Program-made: the position numbers and the translations under genes | The notes under the pieces: generated by a model | The model's database searches: none | What the model saw: the letters and a program-made list of their open reading frames with translations, nothing else | What the model was told of the DNA's origin: nothing | Shown here: piece by piece, positions 4,685 to 32,808 of the stretch | Numbering within the stretch: the stretch's first letter is position 1 | How the letters are laid out: every line of letters begins with the position of its first letter | From: Parahaliea mediterranea | GTDB lineage: Bacteria; Pseudomonadota; Gammaproteobacteria; Pseudomonadales; Halieaceae | Assembly: GCF_003402235.1 (NCBI RefSeq) | Contig: NZ_QEWO01000002.1 | Coordinates: 620,001 to 684,000, forward strand | Length of the DNA: 64,000 nt | Direction: 5' to 3'

Positions 4685-5332
4685 TCAGTACTTCGCCGGT
4701 AAGCGAGTATTAATTATGATGTGGCGTCCCTCGAAGCGGATGTACTCGCCGATGGTGAGATCCTTGAGGATGCGCGCCACCATCTCGCGGGAGGCGCCAA
4801 CGCGATCGGCGATATCCTGCTGGGTGAGCTTCTCGGGAATGTAAAGGGTGCCATCGCCGCGCTCTTCCGACAGGTCCATGAGCACATTGGCCACCCGGCC
4901 GTACACATCCTGCAGGGCCAGGCTTTTCACATCCGCAGTGAGCTTGCGCACACGCTGGGCCAGGTTGCGAATCAACTGTCGGGAGATGTTCGGGTACTGG
5001 TCCAGCACCCGGTTGAAGTCTTCCTTGTAGATGATGCAGAAGCTGGACTTCTCCACCGTGCGCACGGAGGCGGAACGCACCGAGTCATCAAGCAGGGCCA
5101 GCTCGCCGAAGTAATCGCCGGCGCCCTGGGTGTTCATGATGAACTCCTTGCCGTTCTTGTCGCTGCAGTACACCTTGACCTTGCCGCTCTCGATAATGAA
5201 CAGCGAGTCTGCCGGATCGTTCTCGTGGATCACCACGGTATTTTTGGGGAACGATCGGCTGGTACTGCTGGATGACAGTGCATCCAGTTCTTCCCGAGAC
5301 AACCCCTGGAAGATTTCTACTTGTTGCAACAT
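4685..5332 (-). CDS. Crp/Fnr-family transcription regulator, probably cyclic-nucleotide binding
   Basis: Dimeric cytosolic regulator of 215 residues. An N-terminal cyclic-nucleotide-binding beta-roll holds the phosphate-binding cassette FGELALLDDSVRSAS; the Glu and the Arg-Ser pair match the residues that hold cAMP in E. coli CRP. A long C-helix follows, then a winged helix-turn-helix with LTQQDIADRVGASREMVARI. There is no N-terminal cysteine cluster, so it is not an oxygen-sensing Fnr. The start at MLQQVEIFQGLS matches the family; the frame is open for another 27 codons upstream. It is divergent from a cyclase / receiver / kinase operon, which makes that cyclase a plausible ligand source. 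Confidence 0.9.
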   Translation of the reverse strand: MLQQVEIFQGLSREELDALSSSSTSRSFPKNTVVIHENDPADSLFIIESGKVKVYCSDKNGKEFIMNTQGAGDYFGELALLDDSVRSASVRTVEKSSFCIIYKEDFNRVLDQYPNISRQLIRNLAQRVRKLTADVKSLALQDVYGRVANVLMDLSEERGDGTLYIPEKLTQQDIADRVGASREMVARILKDLTIGEYIRFEGRHIIINTRLPAKY

Positions 5333-5429
5333 GCGTTCTGTACCTGCCCCGTGATTAGCCTTGTCCCTTAAGCTACGCCGCCAATAGTAACCCAAACTTT
5401 GCGGGATGCGCACCCGTAGGGTCCAAAAC

Positions 5430-5462
5430 GCGGCACAGTTGTTGCCGCATTGTTACTGTAAC
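5430..5462. promoter_or_regulatory. two inverted repeats in the divergent Crp/cyclase promoter region
   Basis: The first repeat has arms GCGGCA and TGCCGC separated by seven bases (5430-5448). The second is an 11-base perfect palindrome, GTTAC-T-GTAAC (5452-5462). Both lie in the 207-base gap between the divergent genes, upstream of a TATACT box at 5501. They are candidate operators; neither matches the classic CRP or Fnr consensus. Confidence 0.45.
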
Positions 5463-5500
5463 GAATGAATTGGCCGTTTCCACACTCCCCTGGCCCTCGT

Positions 5501-5506
5501 TATACT
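5501..5506 (+). promoter_or_regulatory. predicted -10 box of the cyclase operon
   Basis: TATACT lies 34 bases before the GTG start of the cyclase gene, with no convincing -35 box, as expected for an activator-dependent promoter. It lies downstream of the alternative ATG at 5465, which favours the GTG at 5540 as the true start. Confidence 0.45.
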
Positions 5507-5539
5507 CGCCCCACACCCCCAAGCAGACCCGAACCCCCT

Positions 5540-6985
5540 GTGACCAGCACTTTGCAACAGGCCGCCATACTCTGGAGCGATGCCCTCCTGCGTACGTTGA
5601 TAGAGCTGCGCGCCCTGTATGAGCGCGACGGCCCGACCCTCAACGACATGGCGCAGGAGGACTTCGGCAAGCTGTTTATTGCCGGCGAGCGCCTGGAGCG
5701 TTGCCTGGGCGCCGGGCAGGACAGGGAGGCGCGCCACGAGCTTATGAACGTGCTGGCCGCCATCCGCGGCTACGCCGAAATGCTGCAGGAGGACCTCGCA
5801 GCCAGCCACGGCGAACTGTCCGACTCCCTCAGCCGGCTGCTGAAGGCGGTGCAGACCGCCGACGCCGGGGGCGAAACCTCCTCCCGTGGCCGCAGCGCCA
5901 GCGTCACTTCCGAGCCGGGCTTTATCCTGGCCGTGGACGACCGCCAGGAAAACCGCGAGCTGGTGGCCCGCTACCTGTCACGCTCCGGCCACCTGGTGGT
6001 GACCGCCGCCAGCGGCGAGGAAGCCCTGCGCACCCTGGAGCAGGCCGACGTGGACGTGGTGCTGCTGGATCTGGTGATGCCGGGCATGGACGGGCGCGAA
6101 GTGCTGCGACGCATCAAGGAGCACGAAGACTGGCGCGCCACGCCGGTCATTGTTATCTCCGGCCACCAGGACATGGAGGACATCATCGAATGCATTGAAG
6201 CGGGCGCCGACGACTACCTGTTCAAGCCCTTCAACCCGGTGTTGCTGCAGGCCCGCATCAAGGCGGGCATCGAGCGCAAGCGCTGGCACGACCGCGAGGA
6301 ACTCTACCGCCAGCAACTGGAGCGCAACGAGAAGTTCATCCGCGCCACTTTCGGCCGCTACCTGTCGGACGAGATCGTCACCGACATCCTGGAGCGCCCC
6401 GAAGGCCTGGAACTGGGGGGCGATTTGCGGGAGGTGACCATCATGATGTCCGACATCCGCGGCTTCACCACCCTCAGCGAGCGGCTGCCCCCCGATGCGG
6501 TGGTGAAAATGCTCAACCGCTACCTGGGCACCATGACCGACATCATCATGGCCCACCAGGGCACCATCGATGAATTCCTGGGCGATGCCATTCTGGCCGT
6601 GTTCGGCGCGCCACTGGCACGGGAGGACGACGCCGACCGCGCCGTGCGCTGCGCCCTGGCCATGCAGGCGGCCATGGCGGACATCAACGCCCAGAACCGG
6701 GCCGAGGGGCTGCCCGAGGTGGAAACCGGCATCGCCCTCAATACCGGCGTGGTCATTGCCGGCAATATCGGCTCCGAGCGGCGCAGCAAATACGGCTTTG
6801 TGGGCCACCCGATGAACGTCACCTCGCGCATCGAGGACCACTGCGCCGGCGGCGAAACCCTGATCTCCCGCAGCACCCTGGACAAACTCGACGGCCACTA
6901 CCGGGTGGCCGAGCCCCTCACCCTGAAAGTGAAAGGCATCGACCAGGAAGTGGAAGTCTATCGCCTGCAGGGGGATGCGCCATGA
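5540..6985 (+). CDS. response regulator with class III nucleotide cyclase output domain
   Basis: Two-component output protein of 481 residues from the GTG start (an ATG at 5465 would add 25). Residues 1-115 form a helical region, possibly an Hpt-like or dimerisation segment. The receiver domain spans 127-245 with acidic pair DD near 132 and phospho-acceptor D177 in LLDLVMPGMDG. A coiled linker follows, then a class III adenylate/guanylate cyclase domain (295-475) with metal ligands D305 (MSDIRGF) and D349 (FLGDA) and transition-state residues N426 and R430. The base-selecting lysine position is Glu (E345) and its partner is Gly (G419), so cAMP versus cGMP cannot be called. Four-base ATGA overlap with the next gene. 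Confidence 0.93.
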   Translation: MTSTLQQAAILWSDALLRTLIELRALYERDGPTLNDMAQEDFGKLFIAGERLERCLGAGQDREARHELMNVLAAIRGYAEMLQEDLAASHGELSDSLSRLLKAVQTADAGGETSSRGRSASVTSEPGFILAVDDRQENRELVARYLSRSGHLVVTAASGEEALRTLEQADVDVVLLDLVMPGMDGREVLRRIKEHEDWRATPVIVISGHQDMEDIIECIEAGADDYLFKPFNPVLLQARIKAGIERKRWHDREELYRQQLERNEKFIRATFGRYLSDEIVTDILERPEGLELGGDLREVTIMMSDIRGFTTLSERLPPDAVVKMLNRYLGTMTDIIMAHQGTIDEFLGDAILAVFGAPLAREDDADRAVRCALAMQAAMADINAQNRAEGLPEVETGIALNTGVVIAGNIGSERRSKYGFVGHPMNVTSRIEDHCAGGETLISRSTLDKLDGHYRVAEPLTLKVKGIDQEVEVYRLQGDAP

Positions 6986-7356
6986 GCGCCGCGCGCCCCG
7001 TCCTGCTGGTGGAGGACAACGAACTCAACCGCGACATGCTGGTGCGCCGCCTGAAGCGCGCAGGCATCGCGGTGATCAGCGCCGGCGACGGGGCCGAAGC
7101 CCTGCGGCTGATGGCCGAGGAGCAGCCGGCGGTGGTGCTGATGGACATGAACCTGCCGGTGATGGACGGCTGGACCGCGGTGCGCACCGCCCGCGCCGAT
7201 GCGAGCCTGTGTGATATCCCCATCATCGCCCTCACCGCCCACGCCATGGACGCCGACCGCCAGAGCGCCATCGACGCCGGCTGCGACGACTACGCCACCA
7301 AGCCCATCGACTTCCCCGGCCTGCTGGCCAAAATCGAGAAACTGGCCAGCGCATGA
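6982..7356 (+). CDS. single-domain response regulator (CheY-like)
   Basis: A stand-alone receiver of 124 residues. The acidic pocket is in VEDNELNRD, the phospho-acceptor is D55 in [12 protein letters not shown], Thr/Ser and Lys switch residues are in IIALTAHAM and DYATKPID. No output domain is attached, so it acts by protein contact or as a phosphate relay or sink. It sits between the receiver-cyclase and the kinase, overlapping each by four bases (ATGA), which implies translational coupling and shared stoichiometry. The cognate kinase is very probably the next gene. Confidence 0.94.
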
Positions 7357-8882
7357 GTCTTCGCCGCCGACTGACCCTGTCGCTGTTTGCCATCCTTATC
7401 CTGTTTGCGGCCAACGTGGGCACCCACTTCTGGGGCAGCTACGCGCGAAACGAGAGCATGATCGCCTACCGCAACTCGGTGAATGCGGCGCGCCTGTCCA
7501 CCGACCTGGAACAGCAGCTGGACAACCAGCGCCAGCAGATTCTGGTGCTGGCCACCCTGCGTGAAACCACCGGGGAGCCATTGGAGGCCCAGGAGCTGGC
7601 CCGGGCCGAGACCGACATTGCCGACATTCGCGGCAAGGTCAGCCAGCTGGGGGAACTCAGCCACGAAGTCACCCAGCTGCATTTCCAGAAGCTCAAGGAC
7701 AGCAGCGACGACCTGCTGGATAGCTGGCTGGCCTACTACCGCAACTACAACGACGCCAATTACCAGGCGGACATGGACGACCCCATCCCCTACCTGGAGG
7801 CGGTGCAGCGCCTGAAGGAGCTGGAACAGCGCCAGGCCTTTATCTCGGTGCAGCGGGCCAACGTGATCGACCGCACCATCGCCCTCACCGACCGCATTAC
7901 CGTCATTGGCTTTCTCGGCTCCATCCTGCTCACCGCCATCCTTGGTTTTTTCCTGGTGCGCTACACCAACCGCTCCCTCAAGCGGCTGAAAACCGGCACC
8001 CAGCGCATTGGCAGCGGCGAGCTGAACTACCGCATCAACAATATCGATGACAGCGGCGAGCTAGGCGACCTGGCCCAGGCCTTTAACGACATGGCCGACA
8101 AGTTGCGCAAGGCAATCTACGAGGTGCGCCAGGCCAAGGAGGATGCCGACGAGGCCAACGCCGCCAAGAGCATCTTCCTGGCCAATGTCAGCCACGAGTT
8201 GCGCACCCCGCTGAACGCCATCATCGGCTACAGCGAAATGCTGCACGACGAACTGGACGACGACACCGAGGTGGACCGGGCGCAGTTCCAACGCGACCTG
8301 GACAAGATCGTCCTGTCCGGCCGGCAGCTGCTGTCGCTGATCAACGACATTCTCGATTTGTCCAAGATCGAAACCGGCAAGATGGACCTGCACAGCGAGC
8401 AGTTCAGCCCGGCGGAGGTGCTGCAGCAGGTCTGCGACTCCATCCAGCCCCTGCTGAAAGAGCGCAACAACACCCTCAGCCTCACCGGCCTTGGCAAGTT
8501 GCCGCTGCTGCACAACGACGCCACAAAATTCCGGCAGATATTCATCAATCTGCTCAGCAACGCCTGCAAATTCACCGAGAACGGCGACATCAGTGTCAGC
8601 GCCGCCCCGGTGGAAGGGCGCGAAGGCTGGTACCAGTTCGGGGTCAGCGACACCGGCATCGGCATGGATGACGAGCAGCAGGCAAGGGTGTTCGAGGCCT
8701 TTGTGCAGGCGGAATCATCCACCAGCGCCAACTACGGTGGCACCGGCCTCGGCCTGGCCTTGTGTCGGGAATACAGCGAGTTGATGGGGGGCGGGATCAG
8801 CGTGCGCAGCCAGCCCGGCCAGGGGGCGACCTTTACTGTCGTGCTCCCCGCTGACCCAGCGTCAGTTCGCGCAGCCGCTTGA
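7353..8882 (+). CDS. membrane-bound sensor histidine kinase
   Basis: Inner-membrane kinase of 509 residues. One transmembrane helix lies at about 6-24, a mostly helical sensor of about 155 residues follows with no obvious ligand family, and a second helix lies at about 182-204. A HAMP linker, a HisKA domain with phospho-acceptor H281 in [20 protein letters not shown], and a HATPase domain with N box (LLSNACKF), DTGIGMD and GGTGLGLAL follow. It has no attached receiver; two separate receivers are encoded just upstream with four-base overlaps. Its final 50 bases overlap the end of the convergent lipoprotein gene on the other strand. Confidence 0.95.
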
Positions 8883-9444
8883 GGGCTTCCTCGCGCTTCT
8901 GCAGGTCTTCCTGCAGCATGCTGTTATTGCTTTCCAGCTCCGAGATGTGGCGGTCCATCATGGCGAAGGACTCCAGCGCATCGCGCATGATCAGGCTGGT
9001 GGGATGCACCTTCATGTCCGGGGTCAGTTCCTTGTTCAGGCGGCGCCAGCTCTTGCGCGACGCCTCCGGGTCCAGAAAGGGGCTGCTGGACACCATGCTG
9101 ACAAAGGCAATACCAATGCCCGCTTCCCACTCCGCTTCCGGCGAAGATTCCAGCCGCTGGTAACGCTGGAAGTACTTCACCGCCTCGATGTGATCCCCCC
9201 GGGATAGGGCGTCGTAGCCGCGCTCCAGAAAGGTCTGGTCGCGCGTTGCGGCCTGCGCTTCGCTCCCACCGCAGTCGCAGGGCGCCGGGGCGGCCTGCTG
9301 CGGCAGGTTGAGGGTCAACTCCGGCACTGTTTGCGCGTCAGTCGGCGCCGCCGCGCTGACGGGTTGCTCCGGCACCGGCGCGCAGGCCGCCAGGCCCGCG
9401 CTCAACAGGACAATCGGAAGGGTTCGCGAAATCAGTTGCGGCAT
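8833..9444 (-). CDS. predicted lipoprotein with C-terminal coiled coil
   Basis: A 203-residue secreted protein. The signal peptide ends in the lipobox LAAC, giving a lipidated cysteine at about residue 21. A Pro/Ala-rich linker follows, then a helical region with the spacing of a tetratricopeptide-like repeat ([21 protein letters not shown]). A coiled coil at about 165-195 ends in basic residues. I cannot assign a family. Some kinase operons carry a lipoprotein partner, but this gene is on the opposite strand, tail-to-tail with the kinase and overlapping its last 50 bases, so co-expression is not implied. Confidence 0.8.
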
Positions 9445-32091: not shown

Positions 32092-32808
32092 CTACTCGGG
32101 CGCATCATAGGCTGTGGTGATCTGCTCCATGCCGGTGAGATACCCGTAGTTCTTCGCCAGTTTTTCCAGGTCGTTCACGTAAATGCGGCCGTAACGCAAC
32201 TCCACCACCCCGGCCTTGCGCAGGGCCTGCAACTCACGATTGATACTCTGCCGGGATGCCCCCATCAGGCGCGCCAGTTCCTCTTGTGAGAGATCCACAT
32301 AACGGGCGTTATCCTCGTCGTAGCGGCCGTGGGTAAATGCCAGCCGGTGAATGGCCCGCGCCACCCGCTGATGCAGATTAAGCCCGCCCTCTTCATGCAG
32401 CGCGTAGAGCGCTCGCAGGCGCCTGCACAGTGTCAACAGCAGGGTCTGGTTCAGCTCCGGGAACTCCGCCACCAGGGCCTCGAACTGGCGCCGGCCCAAC
32501 ACACGCAGCACACAGTCCTCCAGGGCCAGCGCATGGCTGACGCGCGGCAGGCCATCGATCATGCCCATCTCGCCAATACAATCGCCCGCGCGAAACTGGG
32601 CGGTGATGATTTCGCGGCCATCCTCGGTGTAGTTGCATAGCTGCACCACCCCCGCCACCAGTTGGTAGACCTCATCGGAGGAATCACCCTGGCGATACAC
32701 CGCGCTACCCGCGGCCACCTGGCGCAAACTGCTCATGCGTTCAAAGGCCTCACGCCCCGCCGGAGGCAGGCCGCTGACAAAGTCGTGCATGTGGGGAATA
32801 ACGCGCAT
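32092..32808 (-). CDS. Crp/Fnr-family transcription regulator (non-cAMP type)
   Basis: Regulator of 238 residues. The N-terminal sensor barrel has CIGEMGMIDGLPRVSHALA; the Arg-Ser/Thr pair that holds cAMP is altered (RVSH), so cAMP is unlikely. The helix-turn-helix reads LSQEELARLMGASRQSINRE. There is no N-terminal cysteine cluster. The ATG at 32808 has GAGGCAGG upstream; the frame stays open to 32997 but that part looks non-coding. It is divergent from a TonB receptor with a perfect inverted repeat in the 234-base gap, and its other neighbour is another TonB receptor. The signal sensed is unknown. Confidence 0.88.
   Translation of the reverse strand: MRVIPHMHDFVSGLPPAGREAFERMSSLRQVAAGSAVYRQGDSSDEVYQLVAGVVQLCNYTEDGREIITAQFRAGDCIGEMGMIDGLPRVSHALALEDCVLRVLGRRQFEALVAEFPELNQTLLLTLCRRLRALYALHEEGGLNLHQRVARAIHRLAFTHGRYDEDNARYVDLSQEELARLMGASRQSINRELQALRKAGVVELRYGRIYVNDLEKLAKNYGYLTGMEQITTAYDAPE

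Follow-up and report, generated by a model that had tools for sequence, protein, structure and literature searches.

In a 64,000-nucleotide stretch of the Parahaliea mediterranea genome (contig NZ_QEWO01000002.1, positions 620,001 to 684,000; genome size 5.1 Mb), hereafter the window, we identified a four-gene unit in which a Crp-like transcription factor is encoded divergently from a receiver-cyclase, a free receiver and a HAMP-containing histidine kinase. The unit is conserved in the family Halieaceae, and its cyclase is probably a guanylyl cyclase. A chain in which the kinase would act on this cyclase through a phosphorelay, and the cyclic GMP (cGMP) so made on the Crp-like factor, is the best explanation we can offer, with about an even chance of being right as a whole. 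Bacteria mostly use cyclic AMP (cAMP) for Crp-type switches, and few cases of cGMP as a bacterial transcription signal have been studied so far. All functional statements were inferred from sequence, and positions are those of the window.

The four-gene unit and its cyclase

Open reading frames and Pfam matches placed the four genes where the original prediction, made from the letters of this DNA without database searches, had put them; the four-base overlaps, the FGEL and RSAS motifs and Asp177 are also as it described them. The Crp-like transcription factor (215 amino acids; 4685–5332, minus strand) matched cNMP_binding (E 8e-27) and HTH_Crp_2 (E 2e-12). The three other genes lie on the plus strand. 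The first encodes a protein of 481 amino acids with a relay-type His, a receiver and a class III cyclase domain (5540–6985, GTG start; Response_reg E 6e-32, Guanylate_cyc E 5e-24), in which the receiver spans residues 129–240 (5924–6259) and has its phosphoacceptor at Asp177 (codon 6068–6070); this and the other cyclase residue numbers count from GTG 5540. It is followed by the free receiver (124 amino acids; 6982–7356; Response_reg E 2e-25), with E11, D12, D55, T85 and K107 as read from the translation, and by the HAMP-HisKA-HATPase kinase (509 amino acids; 7353–8882; HisKA E 9e-21, HATPase_c E 1e-29). ATGA overlaps of four bases are present at both junctions (6982–6985 and 7353–7356). His281 of the kinase was placed by pairwise comparison with the N-terminal segment of the cyclase protein, and a membrane location of the kinase is predicted from hydrophobic stretches judged by eye.

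The grouping exceeds chance. Of 55 other loci from Halieaceae, 51 show the Crp-like, cyclase, receiver and kinase genes in the same order and orientation, so the genes do stay neighbours in relatives. These 55, out of 56 other family cyclase loci, were analysed with their flanks, G040 (a fragment only) being excluded and the window itself not counted. Three exceptions stop at a contig end (L008 and L010, without the Crp gene, and L049, with the kinase cut), and in the fourth (L050, genome G029) some 9 kb of the same contig separate the Crp gene from the rest of the unit. A search at E <= 1e-60 detected the cyclase in 57 of 61 family genomes and in 7 of the 36 genomes from elsewhere in the order that the same set included; the four family genomes with no match are 66–86% complete. 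In wider samples, each including the host genome, it was present in 67/390 genomes across the order and 7/369 across the class. The Crp-like factor was the most conserved of six proteins compared, with a median identity to the window of 93.1% (n 52), followed by LysS (79.4%, n 31), the free receiver (70.2%, n 55), the cyclase (69.0%, n 55), the kinase (69.0%, n 54) and XseA (54.0%, n 49). Kinase, receiver-cyclase and Crp-like factor thus form a conserved unit, which agrees with the original prediction, and the Crp-cyclase pair survives in four loci from two lineages (L063, L216, L217 and L218), where the Crp gene still adjoins the cyclase and the relay His, kinase and free receiver are all missing. 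Lineages of this kind are natural controls for the contribution of the relay.

The class III cyclase domain (residues 297–477; 6428–6970) contains the metal-binding Asp305 and Asp349, the base-contacting Glu345 and Gly419, and Asn426 and Arg430. Among solved structures it is closest to a Cya2 chimera (6fht), in which the E position is itself occupied by K, and to Synechocystis Cya2 (2w01, E 3.7e-53), followed by CyaB (E 2.2e-31); the domain is identical to Cya2 at 91/186 positions versus 65/183 for Pseudomonas aeruginosa CyaB. Cya2 is described as an E-G guanylyl cyclase (PMC4215837), and its E488K variant is reported to show adenylyl cyclase activity (PMC5995499). In 63 aligned sequences, window included, Glu345, which occupies the Lys position of adenylyl cyclases, was invariant (63/63), and the second base position was G in 61 and A in 2. 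The metal Asp pair and the Asn/Arg transition-state pair are intact, with D305, D349, N426 and R430 each present in 63/63, as is Asp177 of the receiver. When 148 distinct cyclases were read with a coarser pattern, 146 had Glu and none had Lys, and two were left unread. As controls we used 20 better-scoring PF00211 hits, 17 of which were usable (L198, L199 and L213 gave no usable translation): Lys was present in 16 and Glu-Ala in one (L214), a K-T or K-D pair being the prevailing type. These residues argue strongly for a guanylyl cyclase with cGMP as the likely product, and the E-G pair speaks against the cAMP named in the original prediction.

The supply of cAMP in the family was surveyed through class I, class III and CYTH cyclases, and little sign of it was found. 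Class I adenylyl cyclase (PF01295) was detected in 0 of 40 Halieaceae genomes versus 14 of 23 genomes from the rest of the order. Exactly one class III hit (PF00211) was found in 17 of the 40, namely this cyclase; the single hit of G031 was a different cyclase, and G011 had none. The second PF00211 hit of the host genome (L002) lacks both metal Asp residues, as read from its translation. No CYTH (class IV) protein was found in the host genome, and hits were present in 7 of 40 family genomes, although CYTH also includes non-cyclases, so these counts add little.

Several observations weigh against this reading. The paper on the Cya2 structure is said to doubt that Glu alone sets selectivity. At least two PF00211 hits were present in 21 of the 40 family genomes, and the three extra cyclases that were read (L195, L196 and L197) are K-D, adenylyl-type enzymes, so that cAMP may be made in part of the family. 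Moreover, the Tyr that is described as raising the GTP activity of Cya2 (PMC4215837) is Ser in the window cyclase.

Three further observations concern these genes and their relatives. The kinase gene overlaps the end of a small convergent gene (8833–9444, minus strand, weak TPR match) by 50 bases (8833–8882), and overlaps of ~20–60 bases between the same two genes were seen in the checked family loci L075, L076, L077, L082, L088 and L121. In L083, L085, L089 and L118, all outside Halieaceae, the kinase is 732–784 amino acids long and, judged by how it scores against the receiver-cyclase profile, seemingly has its own receiver besides the free one. The E-A control cyclase L214 (G076:C33) comes from a genome with a Crp-like protein 57% identical to that of the window and with no match to the window cyclase at E <= 1e-60.

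The N-terminal His segment and a possible phosphorelay

Residues ~1–110 of the cyclase protein hold the motif H-E-L-M-N-V-L-A-A-I-R-G-Y-A-E-M-L, which was absent from the original prediction. The motif, with His66 (codon 5735–5737), belongs to a helical, phosphoacceptor-like segment (5567–5890, plus strand) whose HisKA match (E 1.2e-4, 22.4 bits) lies under the Pfam cut-off of 26.9. In a single comparison with the phosphoacceptor stretch of the window's own kinase, 12 of 21 residues were identical (E 5e-5). No HATPase_c match was found in the cyclase protein up to E 1. Among 113 distinct sequences, the His was conserved in 112, and Asp or Glu directly followed this position in 111; the Asn was present in 112, the Gly in 113 and the Tyr in 110, and most remaining columns of the segment were variable. 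The 113 derive from 132 rows, of which six without a locatable receiver were dropped and the others lost as duplicates; 11 distant loci had been excluded beforehand.

The His also co-occurs with the two downstream genes. Of 148 distinct cyclases, 122 had at least 2.3 kb of downstream sequence: 110 of these possessed the His, the free receiver and the kinase, seven lacked all three and five were mixed, so that loss of the His accompanied loss of kinase and free receiver in all seven cyclases lacking both. The seven are L063 and L216 (one genus), L217 and L218 (another family), and L144, L151 and L152 (other groups). Mapped on a tree of 43 selected rows, the loss requires four changes, at least three of them forced by supported branches; these counts carry no probability, as related genomes are not independent. 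In L063 and L216, the cyclase's own receiver retains its acidic residues, Asp and Lys despite the loss of the His, the kinase and the free receiver, and a genome-wide search of G091, the genome of L063 (97% complete), gave no full-length match to the window kinase.

A relay from the kinase to the free receiver, from there to His66 and finally to Asp177 is proposed because this pattern of co-conservation and co-loss fits it, and we would put its chance just short of even. The pattern suggests that the free receiver is a relay intermediate and not a sink; the original prediction had made it a branch or sink, and the co-conserved relay-type His favours an intermediate, although the free receiver may still be a branch. 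A sequence-based split of intermediate and terminal receivers was dropped, since the published sequence profile is described as not fitting all intermediate receivers (PMC9981736).

A number of loci and models weigh against the relay. L063 and L216 share one genus and count as one event. The mixed cases comprise L060 and L149, with the His and a receiver and no kinase, L146, with the His and a kinase and no receiver, L147, with the receiver only, and L150, with the kinase only; L148, whose short flank keeps it outside the 122, has a receiver and a kinase nearby yet no His segment. Fold models of the segment also disagree: modelled alone it forms four helices (predicted local distance difference test score, pLDDT, 91), whereas in the full-length model (predicted template modelling score, pTM, 0.50) it forms three, one of them 48 residues long. 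Foldseek found nothing at E <= 0.001 for the segment, only generic helical bundles. A further fold search listed unrelated bundles with Z values as high as 13.8, close to the level regarded as uninformative for helical bundles, and no HPt, Spo0B or DHp chain was among the best 50 fold matches listed.

Much of the same evidence bears on another scheme, in which phosphate passes straight from the kinase to the receiver of the cyclase, leaving the free receiver as a branch or sink and the His66 segment as a kinase remnant serving as phosphatase or for dimerisation. L148 and the five mixed loci suit this scheme, and distant relatives in other phyla (L136, L139, L145, L146 and L149) keep HELRTP-type segments with no ATPase domain detected. 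The conserved [DE]-x-x-N by the His resembles the phosphatase motif of HisKA kinases, which we also count in its favour. However, a phosphatase or dimerisation role alone leaves the His in 112 of 113 distinct sequences unexplained, and the His was lost along with the kinase and free receiver in L063 and L216 while the cyclase receiver kept its phosphorylation residues. We consider direct phosphorylation a credible contender, but lean against it.

Two of the distant relatives, L139 and L145, have a tandem HELRTP hairpin in front of the receiver-cyclase, with the His lost from the second copy (z 20.8 and 23.4 versus shuffles); the arrangement looks like a phosphoacceptor domain, normally a dimer, built into one chain. 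A tandem-duplicated hairpin is not claimed as the origin of the window segment, in which no trace was found (z 0.6; z 1.0 in L136).

The Crp-like regulator and its candidate ligand

The divergent regulator was filed as Crp-like and not as CRP because its score of 131.5 bits does not reach the NCBIfam CRP equivalog cut-off of 266. Its pocket residues are G76, E77, R86 and S87, and its C-helix pair L131-T132 corresponds to CRP positions 127 and 128. In 117 rows, which represent 86 distinct sequences when the last 150 residues are compared, G, E, R, S and T were invariant and L was present in 116, the C-helix pair being Leu-Thr in 116 and Ile-Thr in one. The R, E and R of the CRP recognition helix were kept in 117/117 rows. 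The description of the pocket as the cAMP-contact motif of CRP is therefore sound on the phosphate/ribose side, as the G-E and R-S contacts are present and invariant, and fails at the base contact, Thr127 being replaced by Leu: the pair Thr127/Ser128, described as contacting the ligand from the C-helix of CRP (PMC10127613), is not kept.

On this evidence we slightly favour the view that the linked Crp-like protein reads the cyclase product. Outside the family, a Crp-like match (E <= 1e-45) was present in 7/7 genomes with the cyclase. In family f24 (Spongiibacteraceae) the Crp gene is not beside the cyclase, and an unlinked Crp-like protein of 63–68% identity was present in 6/6 genomes tested. 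In L217 and L218 (family f221) the Crp-like gene opposite the cyclase encodes Met-Thr at the C-helix pair; the receiver of the cyclase is degenerate, the acidic pair being gone, and no relay His was present and no kinase or free receiver was found nearby. The window contains a second Crp/Fnr-type gene (~32464–32724, minus strand, L154), in which the R-S pocket motif is absent as read by eye.

The intergenic region contains two promoter-like elements. One is a conserved candidate promoter block of the Crp gene, CAATAGTAACCCAAA as read on the plus strand (5382–5399, element on the minus strand), whose pattern occurs in 65 of 117 intergenic regions versus 1.1 in base shuffles, and TTTCCA and TATACT with an 18-base spacer (5477–5506, plus strand) form a candidate promoter of the cyclase operon. 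TATACT-class boxes (here TTATACT, 5500–5506) were found in 86 of 117 regions versus 9.1 in base shuffles. GTG 5540 is more likely to be the cyclase start than ATG 5465, because the TTATACT box falls downstream of that ATG; for the Crp-like gene, ATG 5332, where homology begins, is more likely than the start of the longer open reading frame at 5413. No exact 5-base gapped palindrome was common to more than 9 of the 117 regions scanned. The TGTGA-N6-TCACA site is not enriched, and autoregulation through it by the Crp-like factor was therefore rejected.

Several findings count against the linked protein as reader. TGTGA-N6-TCACA was found between the divergent genes in 9 of 117 regions at two or fewer mismatches, with 10.6 expected. 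Outside the family, 4 of 29 genomes that lack the cyclase also gave a Crp-like match (G076, G081, G088 and G092; 50–57% identity). An unlinked Vfr-like protein (L156), with Thr-Thr at the C-helix pair, is encoded in the host genome and in most family genomes, and could be the real reader, while the loss of Thr127 could signal a nucleotide-independent regulator. The original prediction spoke of a closed local circuit; the circuit is not closed, since the genome encodes a Vfr-like receptor at another place and the region between the genes shows no enrichment of a Crp site.

In an alternative reading, cGMP would be sensed by the Vfr-like protein and the linked factor would be independent of nucleotide. 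A T127L/S128A change in E. coli CRP reportedly loosens ligand dependence, and no Crp site marks the locus. All 30 Vfr-like proteins compared have Thr-Thr, the pair with which Clr of Sinorhizobium meliloti is described as answering both cAMP and cGMP (PMC10127613). However, the phosphate/ribose contacts of the linked factor are invariant in 117/117 rows, and the Crp-cyclase pair is what remains in the four loci without the relay. In five of 40 family genomes (G006, G007, G023, G029 and G031) the linked Crp was the sole Vfr-like match or there was no match; in G007 (99% complete) this cyclase is the sole PF00211 hit, and there is no Vfr-like match at E <= 1e-20 besides the linked Crp. We consider this alternative unlikely. 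An ordinary cAMP module, with the cyclase making cAMP and the Crp-like protein as its receptor, is improbable: the Crp fold with FGEL and RSAS, the prevalence of K-T and K-D among control cyclases, which makes the adenylyl type usual in the order, and the missing Tyr of Cya2 would suit it, but the E-G substrate pair and the Leu at the adenine-contact position do not.

In the mechanism we prefer, the membrane HAMP sensor kinase would autophosphorylate at His281 and pass the phosphoryl group to Asp55 of the free receiver, from which it would move to His66 of the cyclase protein and on to Asp177 of that protein's receiver. Phosphorylation of Asp177 would turn the class III domain on, and the cGMP made would be bound by the divergent Crp-like regulator, possibly also by the unlinked Vfr-like protein, altering DNA binding. 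Gene order, domains, active-site residues, conservation and co-loss were read from the sequences, from which we infer each phosphotransfer step and cGMP as both product and ligand. A broader proposal seems doubtful, namely that Halieaceae swapped cAMP for cGMP as the Crp messenger, with a four-step phosphorelay that unites relay His, output receiver and guanylyl cyclase in a single chain and with the L-T Crp-like protein as global cGMP receptor. These abundant coastal bacteria, whose sole recognised class III cyclase is often guanylyl-like, would allow a clean test of cGMP replacing cAMP, and they are suited to asking why the Crp pocket has Leu-Thr.

Relation to known systems

No report of cGMP in Halieaceae, or of such a module, was found among the titles and abstract starts listed from the open-licence literature, which is weak evidence of absence. 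A close counterpart by description is the gcyB-gcyC-cgrA cluster of Rhodospirillum centenum, in which cGMP and a homologue of Crp reportedly take part in cyst formation (PMC4681086). There, too, guanylyl cyclase genes are linked to a Crp homologue, which uses cGMP; however, CgrA is described as working via TGTGA-N6-TCACA upstream of the cluster, a site not enriched here, and the likeness is one of description. A non-Crp cGMP pathway is described in Xanthomonas (PMC3770947).

For the cyclase, Synechocystis Cya2 shares the E-G pair and about half of the domain's residues, as given above; it is described as natively regulated by CHASE2 (PMC5995499), whereas the window cyclase carries a receiver and has Ser for the Cya2 Tyr. 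The cyclase CyaC of Anabaena is similar in that phosphorylation by the kinase AphC is its presumed mode of activation (PMC4284465), but it makes cAMP. The Clr protein of S. meliloti, described as activated by both cGMP and cAMP (PMC10127613), is likewise a Crp-like regulator, but with T-T in the C-helix where the window protein has L-T.

The proposed relay resembles those of the Spo0F-Spo0B type and the Pak-SdrG-PhyT-PhyR system of Sphingomonas, where transfer from a kinase to a single-domain receiver, to the His of a degenerate kinase and to an output receiver is reported as shown (PMC5898713). In contrast to the latter, the window motif is H-[DE]-x-x-N and not HRxxN, a single protein would contain the relay His, the output receiver and the effector enzyme, and the output would be a cyclase. 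The separate parts of the system thus have precedents; what is probably new is a relay-type His, a receiver and a guanylyl cyclase in one protein, together with a Leu-Thr Crp-like partner.

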